Below, piece after piece: positions 6,997 through 64,000 of a DNA stretch of 64,000 nucleotides. Position 1 is the stretch's first letter; every line of letters starts with the position of its first letter. Origin of the DNA: a virus; IMG/VR virus record IMGVR_UViG_3300025137_005412, positions 1-64,000 of that record, one strand, 5' to 3'. The position numbers and the translations under genes are program-made. The notes under the pieces were generated by a model. It saw nothing but the letters and a program-made list of their open reading frames with translations, searched no databases and was not told where the DNA came from.

Positions 6997-7199
6997 ACCA
7001 ATTAAATGAAGAGATGGTGCAAGCCTTAGCACTTAAATTTGAAGGTCTTAAACAAGCACACATTGTAAATGTTAAAACGCTTTTACATAATGGTGTAGGT
7101 GTAGCTGAGCATCCTGATAGTGTATTAACTGTTGAAGGTGAAATTGCAAAGGTTGCAGAATATGATGATAAGCTTGAAGCACTTAAAAAATATTTCTAA
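6993..7199 (+). CDS. small conserved-looking phage protein
   Basis: 68 aa, ATGA-coupled to the preceding transferase and overlapping the next start by 1 nt, so it is almost certainly translated. It is predicted helical and charged, with repeated Leu and Glu/Lys and no Cys or membrane segment. No function is recognised. Its position suggests a small accessory or linker protein for the cassette. Confidence 0.5.
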   Translation: MNQLNEEMVQALALKFEGLKQAHIVNVKTLLHNGVGVAEHPDSVLTVEGEIAKVAEYDDKLEALKKYF

Positions 7200-15465: not shown

Positions 15466-16122
15466 ATGAAAATAAGTAAACGTACATTATCAATACTAAA
15501 AAACTTTGCGACTATAAATCAGTCCATTGTTATTAATGAAGGTAATGTCATTGAAACAATATCAAATGTAAAAGATATATTTGCTAAAGCCGAAGTTGAT
15601 GAAACATTCGATAAGGAATTTGCAATTTATGATTTAAACGAGTTCTTAGGTACTATATCTCTATTTGATTTAGATGCTGACTTTAAGTTTGGTGATGATT
15701 CAGTTATTATCTCTGATGGTACTGCACAACAAAAATACTTCTATGCAGATAAAAGTATAGTTGCAACACCACCTGAAAAAGGTATCACCTTACCATCTGT
15801 TGAAGTTGAAAAGAATATTACTAAAGAAGATCTAACTAGATTAGCTAAAGCAGCTTCAATTAATAATGCTTCAGATATTACGTTTACAGAAGCAGGTATA
15901 CTTGTCCATGATAAAACAATACCTACATCAAATAAATTTACTATCAGTCAGAAAGAAAAAGGTTCTGCCAAATATAATCTATCAATCTCAGTAGATAAAC
16001 TTAAGTTTATTCTTGATGATTACAAAATATCTATTTGTGCTAAAGGATTATCTTTATTTTCTGGTGCCAGTGGTATTGATTACTTTGTAGCACTACAACC
16101 TGATGGTGAATATGGCAATTGA
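15466..16122 (+). CDS. 45: DNA polymerase sliding clamp gp45
   Basis: 218 aa (T4 gp45 is 228). The start follows AAGGAGATAAT. KISKRTLSILKNFATINQSIVI and the repeating strand pattern (IYDLNEFLGTISLFD, FKFGDDSVIISDG) match T4-type clamps, which form a trimeric ring. The clamp tethers gp43 and, in T4, also activates late transcription with gp55 at TATAAATA promoters. Both partners are in this window. It overlaps the next small gene by about 11-20 nt. Confidence 0.9.
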   Translation: MKISKRTLSILKNFATINQSIVINEGNVIETISNVKDIFAKAEVDETFDKEFAIYDLNEFLGTISLFDLDADFKFGDDSVIISDGTAQQKYFYADKSIVATPPEKGITLPSVEVEKNITKEDLTRLAKAASINNASDITFTEAGILVHDKTIPTSNKFTISQKEKGSAKYNLSISVDKLKFILDDYKISICAKGLSLFSGASGIDYFVALQPDGEYGN

Positions 16123-16381
16123 GTTAGAAGATGAAGATCGTCAGGGTCTTGAAGATGCTATTGAAGATGCTACACATGCCGCTGAAAGGTATCTTACATC
16201 TGAAAAGCAGATACATAAAAAATTATTAGAAGTCACAGTAGATGATGCATTACACGCATTATCTTTATATAAAGATTTATTGGTAGATGATCCTAAGAAA
16301 GAAACTTATAAGATTCATTTATTAGTACCCGTACAAATTATAGAAATGTTAAAGGAAAAAGATGAAAATACAAAAGGCTGA
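16112..16381 (+). CDS. small acidic protein between gp45 and dCMP deaminase
   Basis: 89 aa from ATG 16112, with GGTGA upstream; ATG 16103 is an alternative. It is predicted all-helical, starts very acidic (ELEDEDRQGLEDAIEDA), and contains Cys-free amphipathic repeats. It overlaps gp45 and the deaminase on either side, so it is co-translated with the clamp. No function is recognised. Confidence 0.6.
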   Translation: MAIELEDEDRQGLEDAIEDATHAAERYLTSEKQIHKKLLEVTVDDALHALSLYKDLLVDDPKKETYKIHLLVPVQIIEMLKEKDENTKG

Positions 16382-16796
16382 TAAGTTATACGGTGAATTA
16401 GCAGATTTCATTGGCCAACAATCTACAAGCAGACGCTTTAAGTGTGGAGCTGTATTAGTAGAAGATGGTCTAGAAAATATTATTGCTTTTGGTTATAATG
16501 GTACTCCACGTGGTTGGGATAATAACTGCGAACATTATAATGACAGTTCTGAAGAACTGGAAACTAAAAGAGAGGTTTTGCATGCGGAAACAAACGCAAT
16601 TGCGAAAGTCGCACGAACTACATCTAGCTCTGAGGGATCGACGCTTTATGTCTCACTATCTCCTTGCTATGATTGTGCAAAGCTCGTCTATCAAGCTGGT
16701 GTGGTCCGTGTTGTCTATAATAAAGAATACCGAGATAGATCAGGAATTGATTTTCTATTAGAAGCGGGAGTTGAATGTGAAGAAAGAGAACTTTGA
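16362..16796 (+). CDS. deoxycytidylate (dCMP) deaminase
   Basis: 144 aa. The zinc site is complete: LHAETNAIAK (His and catalytic Glu, about 70-79) and SPCYDCAKLV (PCxxC, about 100-105). The N terminus LADFIGQQSTSRRFKCGAVLV is typical of the family. The enzyme makes dUMP from dCMP, the substrate for ThyX, which is 1.1 kb downstream. T4 has an equivalent (cd). Lengths and motifs agree; a deoxycytidine or related deaminase is less likely given phage context. Confidence 0.9.
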   Translation: MKIQKADKLYGELADFIGQQSTSRRFKCGAVLVEDGLENIIAFGYNGTPRGWDNNCEHYNDSSEELETKREVLHAETNAIAKVARTTSSSEGSTLYVSLSPCYDCAKLVYQAGVVRVVYNKEYRDRSGIDFLLEAGVECEEREL

Positions 16797-17007: not shown

Positions 17008-17942
17008 TGAAAGAACATTTTTTATGGGTAGAAAAATATCGTCCTAAAACTATAGACGATTGTATTCTACCAGACAAGTTAAAGCAAACGTTTATTAACC
17101 TTAGAGATAAAGGTAATATGATGAACTTGCTTTTATCAGGTTCGGCAGGCACAGGCAAAACTACAGTTGCTCGTGCTCTATGCGAAGAGCAAGGCTGTGA
17201 TTACATTATAATCAACGGTTCAGATGAGGGTAGATCTATAGATATACTCAGAGATAAGATAAAGAAATTCGTCTCTACTGTTTCAACTACTGCTAAGCCG
17301 AAAGTGGTGATTATTGATGAGGCTGATTACTTAGGTATCGCTGTCCAACCTGCTCTTCGCAATTTTATTGAAGAGTTTAGTTCAAATGCTAGATTTATAT
17401 TAACATGTAATTTCAAGCATAAGATTATTCCACCTTTACATTCAAGGTGTAGTGTTATAGACTTTAGTATATCTAAAGCTGATATGGCTGCAAATGCTGG
17501 TGGTATTGCTAAAAGATGCATGCATATTCTTGACAATGAAAAAGTCAAGTATGAAAAACAAGCAGTGCTTGAAGTTGTAAAATCTTATTTCCCTGATAAT
17601 CGTAGAATCATAAATGAATTACAAAGATATTCTCATATTGATAATAACATTGATAGTGGTATCATTGCAGTTGTAAATACAACAAAAGTAAAAACACTTG
17701 TAAAATATATTAAGCAAAAAGATTTTAAATCATGTCGAGCATGGATCGCTGATAATCCTGATGCTGATTCTTTATTCAATGAGTTCTATCAATCTATAAA
17801 TGAATATGTAGAACCATCTTCAATACCAAATCTTATATTGATTATCGGTGAGTACTTACATAGAGCTGCATTCGTCACGAATCAAGAAATTAATTTAGCT
17901 GCATTTGTGGTAGAGGTAATGAAGAATGTCAAGTTCCGTTAA
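17007..17942 (+). CDS. 44: clamp loader large subunit gp44
   Basis: 311 aa (T4 gp44 is 319). It is an AAA+ ATPase: KYRPKTIDDCILP at the start, Walker A GSAGTGKTTV (about 45-54), Walker B VVIIDEADYL (about 100-109), sensor-1 FILTCNF and the SRC motif HSRCSVIDF with the arginine finger. Four copies with one gp62 load the gp45 ring onto primed DNA. It is followed, after ThyX and one unknown gene, by gp62. Confidence 0.92.
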   Translation: MKEHFLWVEKYRPKTIDDCILPDKLKQTFINLRDKGNMMNLLLSGSAGTGKTTVARALCEEQGCDYIIINGSDEGRSIDILRDKIKKFVSTVSTTAKPKVVIIDEADYLGIAVQPALRNFIEEFSSNARFILTCNFKHKIIPPLHSRCSVIDFSISKADMAANAGGIAKRCMHILDNEKVKYEKQAVLEVVKSYFPDNRRIINELQRYSHIDNNIDSGIIAVVNTTKVKTLVKYIKQKDFKSCRAWIADNPDADSLFNEFYQSINEYVEPSSIPNLILIIGEYLHRAAFVTNQEINLAAFVVEVMKNVKFR

Positions 17943-18573
17943 AATAATCAGTTATACCAATGCACCAGGCACTCCTGAGGACAAAGTTTTAACTGATCTA
18001 ATAGCATATACAGCTAGAGTTTCTAATCCATCCAATCAAGACAATAAGGCGACTCAGGACAAGCTCCTTAAATACTTAATGAAGAATCAACATTGGTCAC
18101 CATTCGAAATGGTTAATGTTTGTATGGAAATTAAAACAACAAGAGATATTGCAAGACAAATATTAAGACATAGAAGTTTCTCATTCCAAGAGTTTAGTCA
18201 AAGGTATGCTGTTGCCAACTCCTTTACTCTTAGAGAGGCTAGAATACAAGACACTAAGAACAGACAGAATTCACATGACAATTTAGATATAAAACTAGAA
18301 AGAGACTGGTTGAATAAACAACAAGACTTGGTTGATAAAGCTAGAGAGTTATATGAATGGGCATTGGAAAACAAGATTGCTAAAGAGCAAGCCAGAGCAG
18401 TCTTACCAGAGGGATTAACAAATTCAACTTTATATATGAATGGCACATTGCGAAGTTGGATACATTACATTGATTTGAGAATTGCTAATGGAACTCAAAA
18501 AGAACATAGAGAAGTGGCAGAAAAATGCTTGGAACAGATTTCAAAAATCTTTCCTGCAATCCAAGGTAAATAG
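17926..18573 (+). CDS. thyX: flavin-dependent thymidylate synthase ThyX
   Basis: 215 aa. The ThyX motif RHRSFSFQEFSQRY (RHR-x7-S, about 80-93) is intact. It converts dUMP to dTMP with FAD and methylene-tetrahydrofolate. Further family elements are LKYLMKNQHWSPFEMV and ARAVLPEGLTNSTLYMNGTLRSWIHYIDLR. It overlaps gp44 by 17 nt. It works downstream of dCMP deaminase. A ThyA-family protein elsewhere in the window (58660-59367) appears to be a hydroxymethylase, which would explain why both are present. Confidence 0.94.
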   Translation: MSSSVKIISYTNAPGTPEDKVLTDLIAYTARVSNPSNQDNKATQDKLLKYLMKNQHWSPFEMVNVCMEIKTTRDIARQILRHRSFSFQEFSQRYAVANSFTLREARIQDTKNRQNSHDNLDIKLERDWLNKQQDLVDKARELYEWALENKIAKEQARAVLPEGLTNSTLYMNGTLRSWIHYIDLRIANGTQKEHREVAEKCLEQISKIFPAIQGK

Positions 18574-19848: not shown

Positions 19849-22350
19849 ATGTCAGAATACTACACTAATGTTGCCATATATGGCCAAAATCTACTTGTTC
19901 GCGGTATCAGAGATGGTGAAGAGTTTCGTACTAAAGTAAAGTATGATCCTACTCTTTATATTCAATCTTCCAAAGAAACAGGATATACAGATATCTATGG
20001 TAATCATCTCAAGCCATTAGCATTTGATAACATGGTCGATGCTAGAAATTTTGGTAAGCAGAATGAAGAAACTAATTTAAAAGTATACGGCTTCCCATTC
20101 TATAACTCACAATATTGTATTGAATACTATCCAAATGCTGAGAATGATTGGAATCGTGAAGAGATAAGAACATTTACAATTGATATTGAAGTATCTTCAG
20201 AAGCAGGTTTCCCTGAACCAGGTGAAGCTGCTCATCCAATCACAGCAATATGTCTACATGATTCTATAACAGATAAGTTTATTACATTTGGTAATGGTGA
20301 TTGGTCAAGAAATGATTCAGTACTCACTGATCAAGATTTACTTGATAAAATCGTGTATGTACCATGTAATTCTGAAAGACAAATACTTGACTTCTTTGTA
20401 AAGTATTGGCAAGATCATTATCCTCAAATTATTACTGGTTGGAATACTCAATCATTTGATATGCCTTATATTCATAATCGTATGGTAAAACTAGGAATGG
20501 ATATTAAAAGACTCTCGCCATGGGGTGTCACACGTATTAAAGAATTTCCTACAAAACAAGGTAATCAACTTAGAGTTGAGATTATGGGTATTGATGATAT
20601 TGATTATCTTGACAGATATAGAAAGAATGCAGTACAAGAATCATATCGTTTAGATCACATTGCATTTATCGAGCTTGGTGAAAAGAAATTAGATTATAAA
20701 GAAGTTGGATCTCTACATAAGTTATTCTTTGAAGACTTTAATAAGTTTATTGATTATAATATTCAAGATACAAATCTAGTTAAAAGACTTGACGATAAGA
20801 TGGGTTTGATTGATGTTCAGATTGCAGTAGCTTATAAAGCAGGTATCAATTATGAAGATGTATCGGGTGTTGTTAAAACATGGGATGCTATGATTAACAA
20901 AGAAATGTTCTTTGAAAAGAAAATACCACCATTTAGTTTTCCAAGACAAGGTACAACTGAAATGATTCCTGGTGGTTATGTAAAAACTCCACAAGTTGGT
21001 AAACATGGATGGGTAGCTTCATTTGATTTGAATTCTCTATATCCTCACCTTATCATGCAATATAATATATCACCTGAAACTATCATGGATAAGCTTCAGA
21101 TATGGCCTGAAATATCAGAAGAAAAACGTATGCGTGATTTCTTACATGGTAAACCGTTTAAGTCACAAGGTGATTTTGCAATTGCAGCTTCAGGCTGGAC
21201 ATTTAAAAAAGACTTTGAAGGTGTAATTCCAAGAGTTATGAGAAAACTCTATGAAGAACGTAAACAAATTCAAGGTGTAATGAAGAAAAAGCAAAAAGAA
21301 GGTGGTGATATTACTAAGCTCCATCTTGCTCAATACGTTCGTAAGATTCTTCTTAACTCAGGTTATGGTGCAATCACCAACAAATATTATAGATGGTTTG
21401 ATCCAAGACTTGGTTCAAGTATAACATTATCAGGTCAGTTTGTAATTCAACGAGCTGAAATGTCAATTAACAGATATCTTAATAAACTCTTAAAGACAGA
21501 TAAAGTTGATTATGTTATTGCAATTGATACAGATTCAAACTATGTAAATCTTCAACCATTGGTTGATAAGTTCTTCGCAGATAAATCTAAAACTGAAGTT
21601 GTAGATATTCTTGACAGAGTCTGCGAAGAACAACTAACCAAAGCTCTTAATAAAGAGTTTGATTCAATAGCTGAATATCAAAATGTATATGCTCAGAAAA
21701 TGGTTATGGGTAGAGAAGCTATTGCAGATGCTGCATTCTGGACAGCAAAGAAAAGATATGCAATGAACGTATGGGATATTGAAGGTTATAGACCTGAAAA
21801 GCCCAAAGTAAAAATACAAGGTCTTGAAGCAATAAGATCATCTACACCTCAAGGATGTAGAGAACCATTACTTAATCTTATTAAGTTGATTCTTACCACT
21901 GATGAAGAAACAGTTCAGAAAGCCATGGCCAATTATAAGAAACATTTTCTTTCATTGCCTGCAGAAGAAATTGCATTTCCTAGAACTATGAATAATGTAC
22001 ATCAATATACGCCAAGAGATAATATTGGTTTCAAGAAAGGTACTCCACCACATATACGTGGTGCTATATTATTCAATAGACTTCTTAATCAACATAAACT
22101 TACTTATGATTGGGAATATATCAAGAATGGTGAAAAAGGTAAATTCCTATGGCTCAGAGAACCTAATAATGTAGGTGGTGATGTAGTATCTTATTTGACA
22201 TCTCTCCCTGAAGAATTTAAAGTTAGGCAATATATCAATTACGAAAAAATGTTTGAAAAGATTATGGCTGATCCTATTGAAAGTATCTTAAATCCTATTG
22301 GTTGGACTATCGAGAAGCGATTGACTCTAACAAATTTCTTTGGAGAATAG
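19849..22350 (+). CDS. 43: family B DNA polymerase gp43
   Basis: 833 aa, somewhat shorter than T4 gp43 (898) and like marine relatives. Exonuclease motifs: FTIDIEVSSE (about 108), NTQSFDMPYIHNR, and YNIQDTNLVKRL. Polymerase motifs: SFDLNSLYPHLIMQYNI (motif A, about 390), KILLNSGYGAITN (motif B, about 500) and AIDTDSNYVNL (motif C, about 563). T4's DTDS-V is D-T-D-S-N here; both catalytic Asp are kept. It is the replicative polymerase with proofreading. Start choice is clear despite no ribosome binding site. Confidence 0.96.
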   Translation: MSEYYTNVAIYGQNLLVRGIRDGEEFRTKVKYDPTLYIQSSKETGYTDIYGNHLKPLAFDNMVDARNFGKQNEETNLKVYGFPFYNSQYCIEYYPNAENDWNREEIRTFTIDIEVSSEAGFPEPGEAAHPITAICLHDSITDKFITFGNGDWSRNDSVLTDQDLLDKIVYVPCNSERQILDFFVKYWQDHYPQIITGWNTQSFDMPYIHNRMVKLGMDIKRLSPWGVTRIKEFPTKQGNQLRVEIMGIDDIDYLDRYRKNAVQESYRLDHIAFIELGEKKLDYKEVGSLHKLFFEDFNKFIDYNIQDTNLVKRLDDKMGLIDVQIAVAYKAGINYEDVSGVVKTWDAMINKEMFFEKKIPPFSFPRQGTTEMIPGGYVKTPQVGKHGWVASFDLNSLYPHLIMQYNISPETIMDKLQIWPEISEEKRMRDFLHGKPFKSQGDFAIAASGWTFKKDFEGVIPRVMRKLYEERKQIQGVMKKKQKEGGDITKLHLAQYVRKILLNSGYGAITNKYYRWFDPRLGSSITLSGQFVIQRAEMSINRYLNKLLKTDKVDYVIAIDTDSNYVNLQPLVDKFFADKSKTEVVDILDRVCEEQLTKALNKEFDSIAEYQNVYAQKMVMGREAIADAAFWTAKKRYAMNVWDIEGYRPEKPKVKIQGLEAIRSSTPQGCREPLLNLIKLILTTDEETVQKAMANYKKHFLSLPAEEIAFPRTMNNVHQYTPRDNIGFKKGTPPHIRGAILFNRLLNQHKLTYDWEYIKNGEKGKFLWLREPNNVGGDVVSYLTSLPEEFKVRQYINYEKMFEKIMADPIESILNPIGWTIEKRLTLTNFFGE

Positions 22351-45207: not shown

Positions 45208-45892
45208 TATACAAGGTGTTGGTACGGTAGGTATGGCAATGAGACATATCTTTAGGCATTGCTTTCATGAAAGTTTAACTGATGTAGATGCAGTGATCAT
45301 TACAAATCATGAAGATTACTTGTATGATGTACTTACTGATGTATTGAAATGGCATACAGGTTTAGTCATAATCAAATGTACTGTAAGACCTGATATATTA
45401 AAAAAGATTATGGGTCTACATGACAAGATATGTTATGTACCTGAATTTCTTAGAGAAAAGCATTCACTTACAGATGCTACATTACCAGAGTTCAGAATAT
45501 TTGGTGGTACCAAAGAAAATATTGCATTAGCAGAAAAAGTGTTTGCTGATTCACACTCACATGCACATAGAATATTCCACATGTCCGCAGAAGAAGCTGC
45601 GTTTGTCAAGTATAGCATTAACTCTTATCTTGCTCTTAAAGTAGGTTTCTTTAATGATCTATATGATAAGGCTAAAAAAGAAAATTTGAATTGGTATAAT
45701 ATTAGTCAAGCAATTATAGCAGATGAAAGAATTGGTTCATCACATTCAGAAGTACCTGGTCATGATGGTGAGTTTGGTTTTGGTGGTAAATGTTTACCTA
45801 AAGACTTAGAAGCTTTTATAGATTATACAAAGTCTGATTTGCTTAAAGAAGTAAGAAATAGTAATGAAGGCAGGAGAGCATTAAACAAATGA
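45197..45892 (+). CDS. truncated UDP-glucose/GDP-mannose dehydrogenase-like protein
   Basis: 231 aa from ATG 45197, with AAGGAG upstream. GVGTVGMAM is a Rossmann G-x-G-x-x-G; VPEFLREKHSLTDATLPEFR and FGGT match the family's E-F-L-R-E-G...P-x-R. GEFGFGGKCLPKDLEAF contains the catalytic Cys. The family is about 390-440 aa; here the N-terminal fold is shortened and the C-terminal sugar-binding domain is absent. It may be a partial enzyme or have a new role. A full-length relative is at 57398. Confidence 0.72.
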   Translation: MLVDIQGVGTVGMAMRHIFRHCFHESLTDVDAVIITNHEDYLYDVLTDVLKWHTGLVIIKCTVRPDILKKIMGLHDKICYVPEFLREKHSLTDATLPEFRIFGGTKENIALAEKVFADSHSHAHRIFHMSAEEAAFVKYSINSYLALKVGFFNDLYDKAKKENLNWYNISQAIIADERIGSSHSEVPGHDGEFGFGGKCLPKDLEAFIDYTKSDLLKEVRNSNEGRRALNK

Positions 45893-55080: not shown

Positions 55081-56328
55081 TTACCCGAGTATTGGTGGTA
55101 ATGGTAGAGAGGATTCGTTATCACTTGCCCTCTGGGGATGTTCGGCTAGTATTGGTTTAGCTCCCTCTATATAGGGTGGAGGTGGTGGATTCAATATGAT
55201 CTTCTTCGGTGGTTCTATACCCATAGATTGAAAGTTATTCGGTATCTGTTGTAGTGTATCATTTGAACCGGTAATAGCATGTCTCATTGCATTTCTTTCA
55301 TTCATTTCCTTCTCGAATTGTTGTCTCTGCTGCTCATCTGTTGGATATACTGTATTACCTCCCTGGTCGAATAGACCCATCCAAGGTATATGTATCCTTA
55401 CCGGACCGATAGGAGTATCAATATCGCATTCTAATACCGTGTCTTTACCCTTCGGACCGGCCTTGATCTGTTCGTGCTTCGCCTGTATTCGAAGCTGCAG
55501 TACATCTTTCGGATGCATAAGATCGGGGTAGATGATATTCTCCTGACCCGCCAGCTGTCTCTCGATACTCGCCCGGATATCATCCGGATTATCCTCATAG
55601 GCGATACCTCGGACCTCGGGAGTTATCTTCTTAATATCTACGAGCTCCTCATCATTCTCTATATGTGCCATCAGGTTCTCCCATGTTATCTGATGAAAGT
55701 TATCAAATCCAATGAGTCTCGGAGGTGACTTACCATCGAGTGGATTGACGTGATAGAACTCGGTATCGGGGAACTGTTTAATAATCCACTGATATCTTCT
55801 CTGCCAGTTACGAAATGTAGGTGCTCCGTTGATTACACCTTCCTTCTTCTTGGCATAGTGCTTCATACCCTCATAGAGGTTATTCATCAGGCCATTACTA
55901 TCGGGATTATTGATATCGGCATCGGACTTGATACCAAAGAAGTCATTACCGATGAGAAAGATCTTCTTATGTTCATGTACCTTACAGGCCACATAGGTGG
56001 CGGATGGTCCGGCTGCAAACTTCTCGGGTGTTGGTATCTTCTTGGCTCCGCTTCCAGGTTTAGGAAACCACGTATAGAACCAGTTCGATCTCGGCCAGTT
56101 AGGTGTAGTCTTCAATATAGTACGAGTCATAGGCTCATCAGATGCTACTAATACATGTGGTGCAAACTCTTCTCGATAGAACCAGTTGCAGGCATAGAGT
56201 ATTCCATACTCTTTAAGTGTCTTAATATCCTTATCTTTTCTTGTGATACCGTTACCAATTACCCATGCGTACTGACCGGTCGGTAGTGTCTTCTTACCGG
56301 TACCCTTAATCTTTGGAAGCTTCTTCAT
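55081..56328 (-). CDS. DUF115/motility-type glycan protein-like
   Basis: 415 aa. YAWVIGNGITRKDKDIKTLK then YGILYACNWFYREEFAPHV and KKIFLIGNDFFG resemble the N-terminal nucleotide-binding half of the DUF115/MAF-like or sialyltransferase-type GT. The C-terminal 100 residues are Pro-rich and disordered (NPPPPPYIEGAK). It is last in a leftward operon that includes a GT10-like gene and a UDP-sugar dehydrogenase, so glycan synthesis fits. Family assignment is from short motifs. Confidence 0.5.
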   Translation of the reverse strand: MKKLPKIKGTGKKTLPTGQYAWVIGNGITRKDKDIKTLKEYGILYACNWFYREEFAPHVLVASDEPMTRTILKTTPNWPRSNWFYTWFPKPGSGAKKIPTPEKFAAGPSATYVACKVHEHKKIFLIGNDFFGIKSDADINNPDSNGLMNNLYEGMKHYAKKKEGVINGAPTFRNWQRRYQWIIKQFPDTEFYHVNPLDGKSPPRLIGFDNFHQITWENLMAHIENDEELVDIKKITPEVRGIAYEDNPDDIRASIERQLAGQENIIYPDLMHPKDVLQLRIQAKHEQIKAGPKGKDTVLECDIDTPIGPVRIHIPWMGLFDQGGNTVYPTDEQQRQQFEKEMNERNAMRHAITGSNDTLQQIPNNFQSMGIEPPKKIILNPPPPPYIEGAKPILAEHPQRASDNESSLPLPPILG

Positions 56329-57410
56329 ATATACCTCTTCATAAATTTGTTAAGACCCGCATCAACATGTAGAGACCTGTTCATGTTATGTTCTCGATCC
56401 TTATTAGTATTATACCATATATCCTGCCATTCTTTATCACTCAGGTGATATAAACGACTGATCTCCTCGTTCAACCTGTTAAGTCTATTAAGTGGATTAC
56501 GTTCGTTGTCGTATGAATGGTCTATATACCGATCAAAGAACTTCCATCCCTTCCTTCGTAGGTTGTTGATATGATGTTGCTGTGCCCAGTACAGAGAAAG
56601 GTTCCCTGATCTGAGAGCACGAAATGTCTTCTCACTTGCAAATGTAGTTAACGGTCCACCATTGACTCGTGTTTCCGATACGATCTCCAGTTGAAAGTTT
56701 GCTCGTGAATCATAGCTATCTACCATGGCACCATTCTCTCCCGCTATCAGGTCCTGTCCCTCATTAGTTATTCTATTCTTAATAGAACCCCAATTATCAA
56801 AGTGTTTCTTTAATGGTTCACTGATATGCGGTCTCTCGAGCTCGGTAAGTACATGTGGACATCTGATCTCCATCTGCATATTACTATTTACAAGTCTCTT
56901 TAAGAGTTCGATACGATATGTATAGTGTCTTCTCATCCAGAAGAACATACGATACTTCCTACTTACCTTCTGATCTCTTCGATTGTTAGATGGTTCAGGC
57001 TGTGACTGTGATAGATTACAATCAACGAACTTCTTCCAGTATGGAATATAGATCCAGTTCTTATCACAATTCTGAGTAAGTGGTCCTGAATTACAATGCC
57101 AGAAGTTTATGTTATCATAGTTCTTAAACTCATTCTTTACATCAAACCATTCAAGAAACCATGGTTCCATACCGACATTGACTATATAGACTACCTGATC
57201 ATTACCATGCTCATCATACATCTTATTCATATAATCACGAGCTACTTTATAGTCATTAAAGCCACCCATATGTTCAAAGTATATTACCTTATGATTCTTT
57301 GAGAGAGTAGCAAGATGTGGTTGAAAGCAGGATAGAGCTTTAGGTTTGAATGGGTACATCGATGTACCCATTTCTCTGATAAATGAGTTTGCTTGTATTA
57401 GTGGAAACAT
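56325..57410 (-). CDS. GT10-like glycosyltransferase
   Basis: 361 aa, coupled to its neighbour by 4 nt. ANFQLEIVSETRVNGGPLTT followed by FASEKTFRALRSGNLSLYWA resembles the alpha-1,3-fucosyltransferase motif (F-x-x-E-N/E-T ... T/S-E-K ... A-L-x-x-G). The N-terminal part is less typical. GDP-fucose or a related 6-deoxy sugar would be the donor in that family, which may connect it with Gmd products. The assignment is moderate. Confidence 0.5.
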   Translation of the reverse strand: MFPLIQANSFIREMGTSMYPFKPKALSCFQPHLATLSKNHKVIYFEHMGGFNDYKVARDYMNKMYDEHGNDQVVYIVNVGMEPWFLEWFDVKNEFKNYDNINFWHCNSGPLTQNCDKNWIYIPYWKKFVDCNLSQSQPEPSNNRRDQKVSRKYRMFFWMRRHYTYRIELLKRLVNSNMQMEIRCPHVLTELERPHISEPLKKHFDNWGSIKNRITNEGQDLIAGENGAMVDSYDSRANFQLEIVSETRVNGGPLTTFASEKTFRALRSGNLSLYWAQQHHINNLRRKGWKFFDRYIDHSYDNERNPLNRLNRLNEEISRLYHLSDKEWQDIWYNTNKDREHNMNRSLHVDAGLNKFMKRYI

Positions 57411-58573
57411 TGTTCGGTTCCATACTTTATAATCTTCTTAGTTCGAGGAATATCAAGATCGACATCATCTCCCCAAGGATCAACGAGTATTGAACCATCG
57501 GCAATGGAATCTATTATAAACTGTGAAGGACCACGGCTACAGAGATATACAGCCGGTTCACTCAGATACTTCTCATAATGAATCTTTGGTTGATTAAACA
57601 TATCTATCTGTGCCTCCATATCTTCAATCCATGCAGCGACTAGGAGAGAAGGAGAACCATCCGTGAGTTCAGATTCTGACTTAAAACCATTATCTAGAAA
57701 TACAATCGGTAGATCAAATGTCAAAAGATACTCGGACATCTTCTTAGCTTGAAAATCTCTTGCTTCCATGACCGATGAGAAGAGATCGTACTTAAGTTTA
57801 AGTTCCTCTGATAGAGACTTTAATGCTATATTATCTCGTGGATGACATGGACCACCGTCACCAAGACCAGGCTTCATGTATTTCTCACTGATAATTCTTT
57901 TCTTTGATTTGGCCAGAGCATTACATACCATGTTAGCATCTGTATGACCAATCTCCATTGCTACATCTTGAATCATATTGACAAAGGATATTTTCATAGA
58001 GATAAAAGTATTATAGAATACCTTTATACATTCAGCCTCCTCATATGAACCAGTTTCCCATCTCACTTTCGTAGTGATAATAGGTTTATAGAATTCTTTC
58101 AGTTCTTTAATATCTTCTTCATCACCACCAGCAATCATCATCTCAGGATTTAGAAAATCTTCCTTTACGGTACCCATTGCAATCAGATATGGATTGTATG
58201 CGAGTCTATAATTTTCAGGTATGTCGATCAATCTGTTTCTAAATGTGGTAGGTAATACAGTAGAGATTACAGTAACGAGTGCGTTGGGAGCGGCATAGTC
58301 ATTGAGATCTATGAGTACATCTTCAAGAGATGAGTAATCAAAATCCATTGCGGGTAAATTGTAAGTAGGTTTTTCACCACCATAGTTTTCATGATGTGGT
58401 GTAGGTACGGCAATAAAGATCATCTCAGCATCTTTACATACTTCAGCCATGTCAGTATTCATTTTTATATCATGAATATGAACATCATAGTATTCATTCA
58501 TTACATCAGCAACTGGTTGACCAAGTTTGCCTGCTCCGATAAATGCTACTTTCTTATTTTTTGCCACTGTCAA
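57398..58573 (-). CDS. UDP-glucose/GDP-mannose 6-dehydrogenase family protein
   Basis: 391 aa, near full length; TTG 58573 or GTG 58567 is the start. Motifs: VAFIGAGKLGQPVADVM (Rossmann), IFIAVPTPHHENYGG, YNPYLIAMGTVKEDFLNP (binding loop), GLGDGGPCHPRDNIALKSL (catalytic Cys, about 236). It oxidises a nucleotide sugar to its uronic acid. It has lost the canonical F-L-R-E-G sequence and may use an unusual substrate. A truncated relative lies at 45197. Confidence 0.8.
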   Translation of the reverse strand: MTVAKNKKVAFIGAGKLGQPVADVMNEYYDVHIHDIKMNTDMAEVCKDAEMIFIAVPTPHHENYGGEKPTYNLPAMDFDYSSLEDVLIDLNDYAAPNALVTVISTVLPTTFRNRLIDIPENYRLAYNPYLIAMGTVKEDFLNPEMMIAGGDEEDIKELKEFYKPIITTKVRWETGSYEEAECIKVFYNTFISMKISFVNMIQDVAMEIGHTDANMVCNALAKSKKRIISEKYMKPGLGDGGPCHPRDNIALKSLSEELKLKYDLFSSVMEARDFQAKKMSEYLLTFDLPIVFLDNGFKSESELTDGSPSLLVAAWIEDMEAQIDMFNQPKIHYEKYLSEPAVYLCSRGPSQFIIDSIADGSILVDPWGDDVDLDIPRTKKIIKYGTEQCFH

Positions 58574-58652
58574 AACCTTTTTTAAGAATACTTAAAACTA
58601 GGATTGTGGCTAAGGAAATGATGAAAGCATCCGCAATAGTTAATAGATCCAT
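58554..58652 (-). CDS. 32-residue membrane peptide
   Basis: On the minus strand an ATG at 58650-58652 starts a frame ending at 58554, 20 nt inside the next gene. It has one membrane helix (DAFIISLATILVLSILKK). It occupies the gap between the hydroxymethylase-like gene and the dehydrogenase, and was probably missed because of its size. Confidence 0.45.
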   Translation of the reverse strand: MDLLTIADAFIISLATILVLSILKKGFDSGKK

Positions 58653-58659
58653 GATTTAT

Positions 58660-59367
58660 TTATTTTACGAGTTTGAAGTGACGCTCGTATACATGAAGAT
58701 TCTGAACTTGCCATACTATCTGGCCAATCTTAACACTAAGATCTTGGGATAAACGTGAAAGAACTTCTTGCTGCCATGCATAATCATTACGATAGCCATA
58801 TATAACATCATTAGATCTCATTTGAACTACTGAATGAATGGAGTTATTACGAATATAATATGTCACAGCATTAGTACAGATGAAATCATTCTTGCCATTT
58901 TCTCGGTATTCTTTCCATATAGATGGACGATTGTATATCATAGCAGCACGTCTGGAATCTGGATTATCAAGAAGTTCTTCGACTACATGTTCATATTGAT
59001 TATGATATAGATCATCGAAGATTAACTTACCGTAATTTGAATTGATATTACCATAATGATCAGCAGACATTTGCCATGCTTTAGGTGGTAGTTTATCTTC
59101 AGGACCATAGATGTCATATATATTTGTAGAGGTTGAATCATACCATTCAATTTCAGCATCTATATACTTTTGATTAGGGATACCAAAGATCGCAGGTTCA
59201 TCGGCTACAAAAGAAGCACCAATTAATTCTATAGTCTTAGAACCAGATCGATCCTTGGTAAACTTTTTTTGATTCAGTTCACTAATAAAGTGAGATCTGA
59301 TATCAGAAACTTTAGGTGTTAGATCATTTTTCAAAGATCTTCGCGAGAATTCCAGTATTTCCGCCAT
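58660..59367 (-). CDS. dCMP/dUMP hydroxymethylase-like protein (ThyA family)
   Basis: 235 aa. DFICTNAVTYYIRNNSIHSV gives the catalytic Cys, and VVQMRSNDVIYGYRNDYAWQ the R-S-x-D and pyrimidine-binding region. In thymidylate synthase the residue after P-F is Asn; in phage dCMP hydroxymethylase (T4 gp42) it is Asp. Here it is Asp (Y-R-N-D). RRAAMIYNRPSIW is also typical of the phage type. So a hydroxymethylase is favoured over a methylase, which would make 5-hydroxymethyl pyrimidine. ThyX already supplies dTMP. Confidence 0.65.
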   Translation of the reverse strand: MAEILEFSRRSLKNDLTPKVSDIRSHFISELNQKKFTKDRSGSKTIELIGASFVADEPAIFGIPNQKYIDAEIEWYDSTSTNIYDIYGPEDKLPPKAWQMSADHYGNINSNYGKLIFDDLYHNQYEHVVEELLDNPDSRRAAMIYNRPSIWKEYRENGKNDFICTNAVTYYIRNNSIHSVVQMRSNDVIYGYRNDYAWQQEVLSRLSQDLSVKIGQIVWQVQNLHVYERHFKLVK

Positions 59368-59746
59368 GGTCAGGTGCCTCCCAATTTGCTGGTTTAGTTA
59401 AGTCCGGTAATCCATAAGGATTAGGACGTGATTCTTTAATTCCAATTTCTTTATTTAAGTTTGCTTTAAGTACTTCTTGCCATGCTTTATTACCATCTAC
59501 TTTGAAAGCATCAAGTGTACCAGCAGCAAATACAATAAGATCAATAAGACCATCTACAATTTCTTTTGTATCACCATCATCAAGTGCTGCTTTAGTTTCA
59601 TCTAATTCTTCTTGACACATTTCTAATCTAAATGCTAGGTACTTACCAAGCATATCTTTATTCATTCTATCTACTACTACAGGTACCATATATTTCATAT
59701 GCATACCTTTCATATCTTCAAATATATCACTCATATCTTGCTCCAT
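59324..59746 (-). CDS. MazG-like nucleotide pyrophosphohydrolase
   Basis: 140 aa. FRLEMCQEELDETKAAL and EIVDGLIDLIVFAAGTLDAF give the E-x2-E...E-x2-D metal motifs of all-alpha NTP pyrophosphohydrolases. The C-terminal part (KESRPNPYGLPDLTKPANWE) is typical of phage MazG-like proteins. It hydrolyses a nucleoside triphosphate, perhaps house-cleaning dNTPs or (p)ppGpp-like signals. It overlaps genes on both sides. Confidence 0.82.
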   Translation of the reverse strand: MEQDMSDIFEDMKGMHMKYMVPVVVDRMNKDMLGKYLAFRLEMCQEELDETKAALDDGDTKEIVDGLIDLIVFAAGTLDAFKVDGNKAWQEVLKANLNKEIGIKESRPNPYGLPDLTKPANWEAPDHGGNTGILAKIFEK

Positions 59747-60041
59747 TAAAAATTGCTGAGAATATTAAAGGTTCTATATCTGTATTATACACTTTATGAA
59801 ACTTATTTGCTGGTACTGGAATAGTATCACCAGGTTTAACTGCAAATGTTTCTTCATCTATTTGCATAAGTCCATTACCTTTTGTAAATACATATACTTC
59901 TTCTTGTTGTTTATCACTGTGTGTATGACCATTTGTTTCACATCCAGGTTGTAAGCAAGTAATTGATGGAACTAATATCTTTAGTTCATCATTATCTAGT
60001 ACGTAGTACCTCTCGTCTTTCTTAGCTATTTTCCAGGTCAT
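59727..60041 (-). CDS. cupin-domain protein
   Basis: 104 aa. CETNGHTHSDKQQEEVYVFTKG has H-x-H...E-x-Y, the first cupin motif, and VKPGDTIPVPANKFHKVYN the second with G-D...P...H. All metal ligands are present. It may be an epimerase/isomerase for sugars or a binding protein. It overlaps its neighbours by about 20 nt, so it shares the operon's regulation. Confidence 0.72.
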   Translation of the reverse strand: MTWKIAKKDERYYVLDNDELKILVPSITCLQPGCETNGHTHSDKQQEEVYVFTKGNGLMQIDEETFAVKPGDTIPVPANKFHKVYNTDIEPLIFSAIFNGARYE

Positions 60042-60312
60042 GTGTATGTAAGGCTATAAGAGCGTAATGTAATATCTTCATGATATCAGCTCTGTTTTTA
60101 CCATCTTTCTTTCCATATCGTTGTGTATATTTTAAAACATTACCTAAACTAAAGCTTAGGCCATGGCCACAATCAATAATAAATTCTGTTGATTGAAACT
60201 TATTCTTAGAGTAATGACCATCATAAGTCTTATCAATATAAGATTGCAGATCATCAATCAGATTCTTTTCATTGAACTTGTATTCTATTTTACTTTGTGA
60301 ATGGCCAGCCAT
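60022..60312 (-). CDS. DUF3310-like protein
   Basis: 96 aa. GHGLSFSLGNVLKYTQRYGKKDG followed by ADIMKILHYALIAL matches DUF3310 (phage SaV-like, G-N-x-x-K-Y-x-x-R-x-x-x-K). The family is common in phages and possibly linked to nucleotide metabolism; activity is not known to me. Coupled to the cupin and the next small gene by overlaps of 20-23 nt. Confidence 0.65.
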   Translation of the reverse strand: MAGHSQSKIEYKFNEKNLIDDLQSYIDKTYDGHYSKNKFQSTEFIIDCGHGLSFSLGNVLKYTQRYGKKDGKNRADIMKILHYALIALHTHDLENS

Positions 60313-60493
60313 TTTTATTTCCTTTTAAGTTTTCAATTCTTTCTTTTAAAAAAGATATAGTAGTATATATGAATCCACAATCATGTGGTTCTAATAATGT
60401 TTCGAAATATTTGATTTCATTTTCTAGTATTTCTATTTTAGCACCATCAGAATATTCCATGGTACCACTATCATTTATTTGTTTATTGTCCAT
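60290..60493 (-). CDS. small helical protein
   Basis: 67 aa: an acidic start (DNKQINDSGTMEYSDGAKIE) and two helices separated by PHDCGF. It overlaps both neighbours. No function recognised. Confidence 0.4.
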   Translation of the reverse strand: MDNKQINDSGTMEYSDGAKIEILENEIKYFETLLEPHDCGFIYTTISFLKERIENLKGNKNGWPFTK

Positions 60494-60767
60494 CCATTTT
60501 TCCTCTCATATATGATACTGCGAATGAGCAGTAATTAATCATGTCTTTATAGGTATCTTCTAGTGATTCAAACTTTACATCACCATCAGCTTCGAGAAGA
60601 GACTGAGCTCTAAGTAGTTTCTGATGAATCATGTCATGAATAGTATCAACACCACGCCTGTAATGCATGGCTTGTTTAATATCTGATTTGGGATTTTGAT
60701 AATCTTGAGACTTAGCTAATTGTAAGTCAATACATTCTTTAAGTATTTTTACTGATTCTTTTTCCAT
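60483..60767 (-). CDS. DUF1599/Nmad1-like protein
   Basis: 94 aa. KSQDYQNPKSDIKQAMHYRR then IHDMIHQKLLRAQSLLE and KFESLEDTYKDMINYCSFAVS match the DUF1599 (nucleotide modification associated domain 1) consensus: D-Y-Q-x-P, T-I-x-D-x-I-x-x-K-x-L-R-x-x-S-L-L-E, D-x-x-N-Y. The family tends to co-occur with base modification genes in phages. With the hydroxymethylase-like gene 1.1 kb away, a modified nucleotide pathway is suggested. Confidence 0.7.
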   Translation of the reverse strand: MEKESVKILKECIDLQLAKSQDYQNPKSDIKQAMHYRRGVDTIHDMIHQKLLRAQSLLEADGDVKFESLEDTYKDMINYCSFAVSYMRGKMDGQ

Positions 60768-61227
60768 GGTGCTCGCTGTGTATGTTTATTAATCTATTAA
60801 TATTATACTTTTTAATTCTAATTTTTTTCTGTACGAGATGATTCATCCATGATTTTTTATTTGTAAACTTATCTCCATAGAATATCTTTAAGAGTGTATC
60901 ATCACTGATACCTTTTCTATCGAATAATCTATCAAGATCAAATGTAGTTGGTAGTACTTCATCAGCAGTATCTCTCTTATAGAGTTCATATGATTGCGGA
61001 TGATAATCTTTAATGTATGATATAAAGTTTGCACTATAACCACAATTAAAGCAATGGCATACAAGACCTTGTTGTTTTGCATCTACCCAGAATCTTGCTT
61101 TACGAGTATTAGTAGCACTATCACCACATACTTGACATGACCAGTTCCATGAGTATTGAGTTTTCTTCTTATAGTTTCTTACTTCGTAAGTAAGACTGTC
61201 AGCAATTGAAATTAAGTTATGAAGCAT
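60739..61227 (-). CDS. primase-type zinc-ribbon protein
   Basis: 162 aa. YSWNWSCQVCGDSATNTRKARF and GLVCHCFNCGYSANFISYI form a Cys4 zinc ribbon (C-x2-C ... C-x2-C) like that at the N terminus of phage primases, with a following helix YHPQSYELYKRD. There is no TOPRIM or catalytic core after it. It may be a detached primase module, paralogous to the ribbon in the protein at 23718, or a regulator with the same fold. Overlaps the neighbours by 16-29 nt. Confidence 0.6.
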   Translation of the reverse strand: MLHNLISIADSLTYEVRNYKKKTQYSWNWSCQVCGDSATNTRKARFWVDAKQQGLVCHCFNCGYSANFISYIKDYHPQSYELYKRDTADEVLPTTFDLDRLFDRKGISDDTLLKIFYGDKFTNKKSWMNHLVQKKIRIKKYNINRLINIHSEHHGKRISKNT

Positions 61228-61988
61228 TCTTGAATTTTATCTATTTGTCTAAGAGTTTCTTCGAACATGTTTGGTGTTAACATGTTTGGTCCATCAGAAG
61301 GTGCTACAGTAGGATTATCATGAACTTCCATAAAGAATCCATCTACACCAACGGCAGCTGCAGCTCTACATAATGGTTGAACGAATTGTCTTTTACCACC
61401 ACTGACTCCATCACCAGCACCAGGTTCTTGTACTGAATGTGTAGCATCGAATATAACTTTCATATTTGGATAATCTTTTTGAAGTACCTGTCTCATATAA
61501 CTTAAACCTCTCATGTCTACTACTAGATTATTATACCCGAAAGTTGTACCTCTTTCTGTAATCCATATAGGAGCATCAGGATCAGGTTTAGATAGTATAC
61601 CTTTAACTTCTTTATATGATAGGAATTGACCTTTCTTTATATTAACAGGTTTCCATGTAGAACATGCTTCTACAATAAGATCTGTTTGTCTGCAAAGAAA
61701 AGCTGGGATTTGGAATACATCTATAATGTCTTGAAGATATTCCACTTGATAGCACTCATGAACATCCGTCAAAAGTTTCATGTCTGGATTTTCATTCTTT
61801 AGAAACTCAAAGTCCTCAACGAATTGTTTTAATCCAACACCTCGTTTACCTTTAACTGAACTTCGGTTTGCCTTATCAAAAGAAGCTTTATAATAAAATT
61901 CACCACTTACAATCTCTTTGATAGCGTCAAACATTTTCTGTGAATGTTCAATACTTTCATGTTGACATGGTCCCGCAATTAAAATCAT
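61212..61988 (-). CDS. kdsA: 3-deoxy-D-manno-octulosonate-8-phosphate synthase
   Basis: 258 aa. LIAGPCQHESIEHSQ at the start, FYYKASFDKANRSS, KPVNIKKGQFLS, WITERGTTFGYNNLVVDMRG, VIFDATHSVQEPG and GFFMEVHDNP are the KdsA signatures. It condenses PEP with arabinose-5-phosphate to KDO-8-P for LPS core. The C in GPC, the H in DATHS, the E in FMEVH and the D in SDGPN match the ligands of the metal-dependent class, unlike the Asn-type E. coli enzyme. A phage copy may boost KDO supply or alter LPS of the host. Confidence 0.93.
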   Translation of the reverse strand: MILIAGPCQHESIEHSQKMFDAIKEIVSGEFYYKASFDKANRSSVKGKRGVGLKQFVEDFEFLKNENPDMKLLTDVHECYQVEYLQDIIDVFQIPAFLCRQTDLIVEACSTWKPVNIKKGQFLSYKEVKGILSKPDPDAPIWITERGTTFGYNNLVVDMRGLSYMRQVLQKDYPNMKVIFDATHSVQEPGAGDGVSGGKRQFVQPLCRAAAAVGVDGFFMEVHDNPTVAPSDGPNMLTPNMFEETLRQIDKIQECFIT

Positions 61989-61991
61989 AAT

Positions 61992-62132
61992 TTAGTTTCT
62001 ATCGTAAAAATCGTCTAAAGGGTTATCAGGTAGATTATACTTCTTTTTACGATCTTTTTCCGCTTGTTCTTTTTCTTCTTTAGTTAGGCCGCGATCTTTC
62101 AGAGGTCTAGCCTCCATAAATCGGTCTGTCAT
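61992..62132 (-). CDS. 46-residue charged protein
   Basis: From ATG 62130-62132 (start chosen because TAATAAATATAG lies just before it). It is extremely Lys/Glu/Asp-rich (KEEKEQAEKDRKKKYNLPD). A longer N-terminal extension to 62192 overlaps the previous gene and is not supported. It ends 3 nt before kdsA. Function unknown. Confidence 0.45.
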   Translation of the reverse strand: MTDRFMEARPLKDRGLTKEEKEQAEKDRKKKYNLPDNPLDDFYDRN

Positions 62133-62142
62133 ACTATATTTA

Positions 62143-62571
62143 TTACCCGATATTATCAAGTGCATCTCTGACAAATTTGATATTATCAGCATTATTATCT
62201 AACACTTTAATAGCATCATCCATATAAGTTATGTAGTCTGTTTCTTGTTCTATCTCTCTAACAATCACATCAACTTTATCATGTATAGGATCATCGTGAT
62301 CTACTAGGTCCCATATCTTATAGCCAATAGATTCAATCTCACTTACTTTTTCTTTGAAAAATTTTTGAGCCTGTTCTTTATTGTAGCTATCCATAATAGT
62401 ATCATAATCTCTGCTACCTTTTTCAGCAACTGAGAGTACTAGCTCATCATCACTTGACCAAGCTTCGTACAGTACATACTCTTTGCCATCTCTGACACCT
62501 TGAACACGAATGATCTTTTCTTCATCAGTATAGTTATCTTCAATAACATTTTTTAAATTTTCTAGTTTCAT
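62143..62571 (-). CDS. hypothetical protein
   Basis: 142 aa, acidic, helical-plus-beta with EDNYTDEEKIIRVQGVRDGK and LYEAWSSDDELVLSV. No membrane part, no recognised motif. Three nt after the previous stop of the early gene at 62574. Confidence 0.5.
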   Translation of the reverse strand: MKLENLKNVIEDNYTDEEKIIRVQGVRDGKEYVLYEAWSSDDELVLSVAEKGSRDYDTIMDSYNKEQAQKFFKEKVSEIESIGYKIWDLVDHDDPIHDKVDVIVREIEQETDYITYMDDAIKVLDNNADNIKFVRDALDNIG

Positions 62572-62573
62572 AT

Positions 62574-62915
62574 TTACCTACTTTCTTGGATTAATCTTGG
62601 AGTGTGAGCATTTCTTTCCATTTTTGAAAAGTATTCTGACCACCATTTATCAGTACTAGTTTCTCTGACTTCAGAGGTCTTGATTACTTGTTTTAAAGTA
62701 ATAAGATCTGCTTCATAAAAATCTAATAACATATCAGTGAATGGATTTCTGTCATTTGATTTCCATTTGATTTCATTGCCATCAGCATAAAAATCATCTT
62801 TATATGTTTCTACTGCATTTTGTGTAGTAGACCATTGATAATTGTAGAACTCATCATTTCTCTTATAGTCTCTACCAGCGATAGTCACTTCATTAAATAA
62901 TTTTTTATCTTTCAT
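62574..62915 (-). CDS. small early-type protein behind cassette copy C
   Basis: 113 aa from ATG 62913-62915. The leader ATGATTAACAAAGGAGAATATATG is the same as copy A, so the upstream ATG at 62936 is part of the leader and is rejected. The protein is charged with KKLFNEVTIAGRDYKRNDEF. Position behind an early-type promoter suggests early expression. Function unknown. Confidence 0.55.
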   Translation of the reverse strand: MKDKKLFNEVTIAGRDYKRNDEFYNYQWSTTQNAVETYKDDFYADGNEIKWKSNDRNPFTDMLLDFYEADLITLKQVIKTSEVRETSTDKWWSEYFSKMERNAHTPRLIQESR

Positions 62916-63030
62916 ATATTCTCCTTTGTTAATCATTTATATGTACCATTCTATACAGGTTATACAGTAATGTACAACGTTTTATGCGTTTCTTTAAGAT
63001 TAAATTGTTATAAGAAAACAACTACTTAGA
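62916..63030 (-). promoter_or_regulatory. conserved early-type regulatory cassette, copy C
   Basis: On the minus strand, TAAGTAGTTG (63019-63028 region), TTTTCTTATAACAATTTAATC, TTGTAC (62972-62977), TATAGA (62950-62955) and GATTAACAAAGGAGAATATATG follow in the same order as copies A and B. Copy C is nearly identical to copy A around the promoter core (GTTGTACATTACYGTATAACC). Confidence 0.75.
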
Positions 63031-63068
63031 CCTAAACTGTTAATAACTTTTAGATTATACTTTAAAAT

Positions 63069-63106
63069 CAACAACTTAAACTTTCGTTTGTTATCAACCA
63101 CTTAAA
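63069..63106 (-). repeat. two further copies of TAAGTNGTTG
   Basis: On the minus strand TAAGTTGTTG (63069-63078) and TAAGTGGTTG (63095-63104) lie upstream of the copy in cassette C, spaced 26 and 50 nt apart. One overlaps the stop codon of the zincin gene. With A and B this makes five occurrences of the motif, all in these three regions. Confidence 0.6.
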
Positions 63107-63734
63107 GTTTTTTCCTCATAGCAGCCATTTTTTGTCTAGCGGTGTGCCATCTTGAAAAGGAATAAGGTGTAGGATGCTTACCTAGCTTGAGACCTTCTTT
63201 TCTAAATTCTGATTTAAGAACATCATGACATTCTCTACCCATAAATGCTGATACTAGTTTTAAGAGTACATTACGGTATTCACGACCATGATGCATCTGA
63301 CCTGCGGCATGAGATAATTCATGAAGTAGAACATATAGATTATAACCATGTTTCTGATCAAGTGTAATCTCATATATGTATGCCCAGCCATGACAACCAC
63401 GACCATTGTAGTTTGCCTTATCTCTAAGCTTTACTTTATGACCACCCTTAGCGTCAGCTTTTATAAATGCTGAGGACTTACAAATCCTATTGCATCTTTG
63501 CTGAGCCTCTTTAAGAGTCTTATAATATTCTTGTTTGTGTTTAAATGCTGGTGTTCTGTATAGTGCTCTTTCTGCTCTATATACTTTACCAGCTTCGGTA
63601 TCTCGTTTATTTTCCATACGAGACATGCTGTGTTTTTTCTTATGCTGATTGAGATATCTGATATAAGCTCGTTGCTCGCCAACAAGGATATCCTCCCTCT
63701 CATTGACATCGTTTTTAAACGACTGATAGTCCAT
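63102..63734 (-). CDS. SprT/WSS1-like zinc metalloprotease
   Basis: 210 aa. LYVLLHELSHAAGQMHHGREY carries the HExxH motif (about 139-143) with a following His (QMHHG) as third ligand, as in SprT/Spartan and Wss1 families. The remainder is strongly basic, rich in Lys, Arg and His. Such proteins cleave DNA-protein crosslinks in cells. It is a plausible DNA-associated protease in the phage. It is preceded by AATAAATAC on the minus strand. Confidence 0.72.
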   Translation of the reverse strand: MDYQSFKNDVNEREDILVGEQRAYIRYLNQHKKKHSMSRMENKRDTEAGKVYRAERALYRTPAFKHKQEYYKTLKEAQQRCNRICKSSAFIKADAKGGHKVKLRDKANYNGRGCHGWAYIYEITLDQKHGYNLYVLLHELSHAAGQMHHGREYRNVLLKLVSAFMGRECHDVLKSEFRKEGLKLGKHPTPYSFSRWHTARQKMAAMRKKL

Positions 63735-63760
63735 ACTTAAGTTGTCCTCTCTGTTAGTAT

Positions 63761-64000
63761 TTATTTCATGTCATTCAAAGTCGTATCGTCAGTAGAGTCT
63801 TTATTAGACTGGCGCTTAGATTGCCAGTTATTGATATGATTTTGAATTTGTTTCTGAGTAAGTTTGATTTTGAAATTCTCAGGAAAGTCTTTTCTTTCTT
63901 GAAGTAGGTTTTCAAGAAATTTGATTTTAGCTTTTTTAGTAGGTAAAGCTTGGAATGGTTGATATAAAGTTTCTGTTTTGTTTTGTTGAGTGTATTTTGT
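63761..64000 (-). CDS. C-terminal end of a gene cut by the right edge
   Basis: The open frame on the minus strand enters from the right edge and ends at TAA 63761-63763. The 79 visible residues are Gln/Asn/Lys-rich and helical (AKIKFLENLLQERKDFPENF; TQKQIQNHINNWQS). No domain is recognised. The stop codon lies within an AATAAATAC sequence that may serve the following zincin gene. Confidence 0.55.
   Translation of the reverse strand, partial: TKYTQQNKTETLYQPFQALPTKKAKIKFLENLLQERKDFPENFKIKLTQKQIQNHINNWQSKRQSNKDSTDDTTLNDMK

Follow-up and report, generated by a model that had tools for sequence, protein, structure and literature searches.

The T4-like phage represented by virus contig IMGVR_UViG_3300025137_005412 very probably makes 5-hydroxymethyl-dCMP, replaces the cytosine of its DNA with 5-hydroxymethylcytosine (hmC), and then glycosylates this base, as judged from its predicted proteins. 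The DNA read (the window) comprises positions 1-64000 of this 152,041-base contig; the downstream part (locus L002) is numbered likewise. A preliminary description of the window had proposed a modified pyrimidine, a hydroxymethyl derivative of either cytosine or uracil. A modified pyrimidine remains the best reading, and the comparisons below narrow the base to 5-hydroxymethylcytosine, hydroxymethyluracil appearing unlikely.

The contig carries T4-like replication genes, including gp43 (Table 1), uvsX and gp41 (53% and 38% identical to their T4 counterparts, respectively), as well as a T4-like dCMP deaminase. Among cultured phages, cyanophages and Methylophilales phages have the closest polymerases (about 41% identical), and megablast with the 50-64 kb stretch returned no near DNA relative. 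The related group of T4-like phages to which this contig belongs is probably marine.

Table 1. Main features of the contig, in contig coordinates; bit scores are given against the cut-off of the model.
Feature	Position	Strand	Support
gp45 sliding clamp	15466..16122	+	PF09116; phrog_223 E=1e-64
dCMP deaminase (T4 cd homolog)	16362..16796	+	phrog_174 E=5e-44; T4 cd E=2e-22
ThyX, flavin-dependent thymidylate synthase	17926..18573	+	TIGR02170 165.6 bits vs 87.9; PF02511
gp43 DNA polymerase	19849..22350	+	31% identity to T4 gp43; C-terminus TLTNFFGE
Co-directional run holding gp42	55081..68481 (window part 55081..64000)	-	gene order and gaps
361-aa protein, possible glycosyltransferase by eye	56325..57410	-	no family above cut-off
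UDP-glucose/GDP-mannose dehydrogenase-like	57398..58573	-	PF00984, PF03721
gp42 ortholog, predicted dCMP hydroxymethylase, 235 aa	58660..59367	-	T4 gp42 homology, 1b49, active site, tree
MazG-like all-alpha NTP pyrophosphohydrolase (PRA-PH), candidate dCTPase	59324..59746	-	PF01503 36.4 bits vs 21.3
Cupin-domain protein	59727..60041	-	PF07883
DUF3310 protein (nucleotide-kinase-associated domain)	60022..60312	-	PF11753, phrog_480
67-aa ORF	60290..60493	-	overlaps both neighbours; no family match
Nmad1 (DUF1599)	60483..60767	-	PF07659 31.6 bits vs 25
T4 DNA alpha-glucosyltransferase (AGT) homolog, just past 64,000	65337..66665	-	PF11440 101.5 bits vs 25
GalE-like epimerase	66662..67543	-	TIGR01179 206 bits, under cut-off 262; PDB 2c20 E=1e-36
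Nucleotidyltransferase-like	67531..67938	-	PF01467

The gp42 ortholog and the choice of base

The protein encoded at 58660-59367 matches PF00303 (55.9 bits, cut-off 24.3), is 51% identical to T4 gp42 across 222 residues, which cover the catalytic domain whole, and is matched by the structure of the T4 dCMP hydroxymethylase (PDB 1b49, E=5e-65). The nine main active-site residues of gp42 (E60, W82, Y96, C148, T149, N170, D179, H216, and Y218, in T4 numbering) are all kept. Because each of the 80 retained related contigs (the best 80 relatives) encodes a homolog, and these nine residues are invariant in all 80 aligned proteins, the observation is not a matter of chance. The product is, therefore, predicted to be a dCMP hydroxymethylase.

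Two positions discriminate between the possible substrates: the contig protein has Asp at T4 D179 (E. coli N177) and Thr at T4 T149 (E. coli H147). In its public record, E. coli ThyA has His at 149 and Asn at 179; the ThyA-type Asn177 is absent from the contig protein, in agreement with the T4-type Asp noted in the preliminary description; the annotated dUMP hydroxymethylase used for comparison has Asn at 149 and Ile at 179. Replacing Asn177 by Asp shifts the preference of the enzyme from dUMP to dCMP. In a metagenome study, modified-cytosine contigs display Asp at 177 together with a change at 147, and PF01503 and dCMP deaminase domains co-occur with these Asp177-type genes (PMC8670742). Since both discriminating residues fit this pattern, they argue for cytosine as the base. 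In a phylogeny including gp42s and ThyA, the protein falls among the gp42s and not the thymidylate synthases, with 100/99 support on the branch parting the ThyA-type enzymes; several distant phage proteins lie on long, unsure branches, including two Microbacterium phage proteins inside the gp42 group.

The same residues bear on two other readings of the enzyme. It could be a dCMP methylase that yields 5-methyl-dCMP, like thymidylate synthase carrying the Asn-to-Asp exchange: according to work cited in PMC8670742, this exchange alone makes thymidylate synthase a dCMP methylase, and in some phage proteins outside the gp42 group, such as that of Xp15, both positions likewise hold Asp and Thr. Nevertheless, the identity to T4 gp42, a tree position with the gp42s rather than with Xp15, and the hydroxyl group required on the acceptor of AGT make this very unlikely. 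Even less credible is a hydroxymethyl-dUMP enzyme or a working thymidylate synthase, with uracil or thymine as the base. The fold family is common to these enzymes and thymidylate synthase models do match the protein, but weakly and far under their cut-offs; moreover, Asp179 and Thr149 contrast with the Ile and Asn of the dUMP hydroxymethylase and the Asn and His of ThyA, and a ThyX is already encoded. The presence of this dTMP source, asserted earlier, is borne out by the TIGR02170 match; another gene, at 45191-45892, first read by eye as ThyX, is actually sugar-dehydrogenase-like. The hydroxymethylcytosine half of the original proposal is thus upheld by Asp179, Thr149, the gp42 identity, the tree, and the AGT homolog, while its hydroxymethyluracil half is disfavoured.

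Neighbours of gp42 and the alpha-glucosyltransferase homolog

The genes around gp42 abut or overlap in one minus-strand run. As previously described, MazG-like and Nmad1-like genes share this operon, both above the cut-offs of their models, although the three genes that separate them (cupin, DUF3310, and the 67-aa ORF) had been passed over; among the best 80 related loci, the cupin gene is restricted to the three closest relatives. These 80 loci, many of which are cut by contig ends, hold homologs of dCMP deaminase (72 loci), MazG (66), and Nmad1 (53). Taken alone, Nmad1 is weak evidence, because the domain also occurs in other phages, which may or may not encode gp42; it becomes supportive through being linked to gp42 both in the related contigs and in Serratia phage Muldoon. 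A gene for KDO-8-phosphate synthase also lies in the run (61212-61988, minus strand; NF003543, 310 bits vs 242), and is found in just 2 of the 80 related loci (L010 and L029).

Regarding nucleotide supply, no gp56-type dCTPase (PF08761) is matched on the contig, the MazG-like protein belonging to PF01503. Its EELD and EIVD motifs are intact, and a cyanophage MazG favours dGTP and dCTP (PMC6850273), which makes the MazG-like protein a candidate dCTPase. Searches for gp1 or any other P-loop NMP kinase found none on the contig, nor was a gp1-type kinase found in ten related records.

The AGT homolog, located in the same co-directional run as gp42, aligns with T4 AGT over its whole length (BLASTP E=6e-42, 26-29% identity) and is also matched by phrog_2888 (E=4e-58) and PDB 1xv5 (E=5.5e-34). 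It keeps G15, D115, H116, H140, R204, K209, and E306 of T4 AGT, with H114 changed to Val and E311 to Asp; of these, G15, H114, H116, H140, R204, and E311 are donor-site residues in T4. Its gene shares 4 bases with the GalE-like gene, which in turn overlaps the nucleotidyltransferase-like gene. As AGT shares the run of gp42 with these two genes, the DNA product is likely a glycosylated hmC. Glucose would be the default sugar, but the GalE-like gene and the changed H114 leave room for galactose or some other derivative of UDP-glucose. The AGT model matches 5 of 50 related records, and a more distant homolog is present in L027 and L028; the structure model of one AGT relative (A2) was set aside, due to its mean pLDDT of 48. 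The beta-glucosyltransferase (beta-GT) model has no match on the contig, and is silent in control genomes too.

Alternatively, hmC could be incorporated and left bare, the AGT homolog and sugar genes serving a surface glycan. The contig does hold many other sugar genes, and the sister phage L010 keeps gp42 without AGT. However, the homolog is a member of the DNA alpha-glucosyltransferase family rather than a general glycosyltransferase, its donor site is mostly retained, and no other sugar enzyme of the contig bears the polymerase-type tail presented below, while the corresponding slot of L010 is occupied by other tailed enzymes. Bare hmC is, therefore, considered unlikely, and glycosylation of the base is retained.

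Further sugar genes lie at a distance from AGT. A cluster of sugar, glycosyltransferase, and ketoacyl-synthase-like genes, recognized by eye (105-11270, plus strand), probably serves a surface glycan. A link to DNA modification is doubtful for the dehydrogenase-like and 361-aa genes (57398-58573 and 56325-57410). A role of the dehydrogenase and the two genes downstream (55081-58573) in supplying or attaching the DNA sugar was dropped, because these genes stay in L010 despite its replaced AGT cassette.

Clamp-type tails and possibly exchangeable cassettes

The AGT homolog ends in DLESFFA (motif LESFFA), like the polymerase tail TLTNFFGE of the contig gp43. T4 gp43 ends in SLDFLFG, its gp45-binding peptide. 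Defined strictly as [LI]-[DENST]-x-F-[FL], the tail is found on 52 of 53 gp43s of related contigs and, on this contig, is restricted to gp43 and AGT (0.14 matches expected from shuffled tails). In related phages, it ends proteins of five families: AGT, TET-associated glycosyltransferase (TAGT), SGNH-fold, 5-hmdU-kinase-like, and C5-methyltransferase-like. Among the ORFs downstream of gp42, 50 of 299 carry it, whereas the count for the remaining ORFs is 7 of 412 (Fisher p=1e-13, a value overstated because related contigs are not independent). Four of these seven are AGT, SGNH, and C5-methyltransferase-like proteins from phages in which gp42 has moved. What counts is the five families rather than the p-value.

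The AGT and beta-GT of T4, as well as the transferases of Muldoon and Acinetobacter phage AB1I1M-1, are without such a tail. T4 AGT binds gp45 in vitro, and a 2026 study found that the share of alpha-glucosylation is set mainly by expression, not by clamp binding (PMC13216743). The AGT homolog is probably held on the gp45 clamp through its C-terminal tail. The clamp link of AGT is thus already known from T4; the seemingly new part is that several families of modification enzymes encode a polymerase-like tail, for which searches of an open-access library found no description, although this is no proof of novelty.

The usual gene order in the related loci is gp43 - MazG - ... - Nmad1 - gp42 - dCMP deaminase - sugar/modification genes - uvsX - gp41; in this phage and in L007-L012, gp42 lies in a separate gene run, away from gp43. 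The gp42-uvsX interval holds TAGT in L055 and L037, 5-hmdU-kinase-like and inositol-phosphate-synthase-like proteins in L044, and a C5-methyltransferase-like protein with conserved CPC and ENAP stretches in L044, L055, and L059. Phrog_13881 proteins are found in such intervals as well. In L010, whose operon is otherwise syntenic with that of this contig, the nucleotidyltransferase-GalE-AGT slot holds an SGNH-fold protein, a C5-methyltransferase-like protein, and two small genes, and both replacement enzymes bear the clamp-type motif.

When a phrog_13881 member was modelled (mean pLDDT 84), SGNH/GDSL hydrolases were the best fold match (E=6e-6); a weak PF09198 match (E=0.009) had suggested a beta-GT-like protein, but the fold search favours the SGNH hydrolase, with beta-GT at rank 43. 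Most proteins of this SGNH/GDSL-like family in the modification interval (for example, L010:515-1525, L044:15122-16108, and L014:8657-9754) carry a clamp-type tail, and phrog_17781 fuses a phrog_13881-type part to a 5-hmdU-kinase-like part. C5-cytosine-methyltransferase-like genes (PF00145) are located at L010:1488-2717, L044:16092-17300, L055:8500-9708, L059:10106-11293, and L085:5572-6801; the PF00145 proteins of these hmC-type phages have the conserved CPC and ENAP and end in clamp-type or similar tails. A myo-inositol-1-phosphate-synthase-like gene, located between gp42 and uvsX and beside a 5-hmdU-kinase-like gene (L044:12417-13697, L085:1839-3146), suggests that hmC may be decorated in an unusual way.

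A joint reading, put forward tentatively, is that hmC constitutes a shared platform and the decorating enzymes exchangeable cassettes, that at least five tailed families would modify DNA at the replication fork, and that some cassettes probably make new cytosine modifications.

Proposed pathway and comparison with known systems

In the proposed pathway, MazG would convert dCTP to dCMP, which the gp42 ortholog, judging from its homology and residues, would convert with methylene-tetrahydrofolate to hydroxymethyl-dCMP. As no gp1-type phage kinase was found, host kinases are assumed to produce hmdCTP, which gp43 would place into DNA. The AGT homolog, probably on the gp45 clamp through its tail, would then add a sugar from a UDP-sugar, either glucose or a UDP-glucose-derived unit such as galactose, and dCMP deaminase and ThyX would supply dTMP separately. 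Two steps rest on assumptions, since neither a gp56-type dCTPase nor gp1 or other P-loop NMP kinases were found. The pathway is favoured by the orthology and active site of gp42, by the PF11440 score and the mostly kept donor-site residues of the AGT homolog, and by the recurrence of MazG, Nmad1, and dCMP deaminase near gp42, with Nmad1 beside gp42 in Muldoon. It is also favoured by the restriction of the tail to gp43 and AGT on this contig, together with the binding of T4 AGT to gp45 (PMC13216743), and by the association of Asp177 and PF01503 with modified cytosine (PMC8670742). The low identity of AGT, the changes at H114 and E311, and the GalE-like gene, which could serve another glycan, weigh against it.

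Under this proposal, cytosine hypermodification of the T4 type would reach into a broad group of uncultured phages, with polymerases nearest those of cyanophages and Methylophilales phages. The clamp-type tail constitutes a simple sequence tag that may set base-modifying enzymes apart from the other sugar enzymes of phages, and it flags SGNH-fold and C5-methyltransferase-like proteins as candidate new DNA-modifying enzymes. For a specialist, the novelty would lie in the clamp-tail pattern and in the replacement of one cassette by another.

Like T4, this phage encodes gp42 (51% identity), AGT (26-29%), dCMP deaminase, and T4-type replication genes, and T4 AGT binds gp45. Unlike T4, it has ThyX, a MazG-like protein in the place of gp56, GalE-like and nucleotidyltransferase genes adjoining AGT, and an AGT whose C-terminal tail, absent from T4 AGT, resembles that of the polymerase; neither a gp1 kinase nor a beta-GT was found here, the beta-GT model being equally silent in the controls.

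The arabinosyl-hmC system of RB69 and the pentose-cytosine system of Shewanella phage Thanatos similarly include phage-encoded genes for sugar supply, which in RB69 lie near the gp42-like gene, as well as a transferase of their own (PMC6024577, PMC12838424), but BLAST found no homologs of RB69 ORF003c, ORF052c/053c, or arabinose-5-phosphate isomerase here. RB69 ORF048c (L092 1498-2214) keeps Cys148 and Asp179. Because it is without Glu60 and Trp82, both present in the gp42 ortholog of this phage, its reaction may differ somewhat from that of T4 gp42.

The cultured, T4-like phage Muldoon shares an Nmad1 (55% identical) directly upstream of gp42 and transferases between gp42 and uvsX, in the order Nmad1, gp42, hypothetical gene, two glucosyltransferases, uvsX. 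It differs in having TAGT and beta-GT instead of AGT in this interval, both without the clamp-type tail. Two transferases likewise follow gp42 in AB1I1M-1. Pelagibacter phage Kolga (L099 2220-3417) has a thymidylate-synthase-like gene whose product combines Asp at 179 with His at 149, and a relative of the MazG of this phage follows it directly. Finally, in the 5-carbamoyloxymethylcytosine contigs found by MetaGPA, PF01503 and dCMP deaminase domains accompany a thymidylate-synthase-like gene of the Asp177 type, as here, but these contigs encode a carbamoyltransferase and this phage an AGT homolog (PMC8670742).
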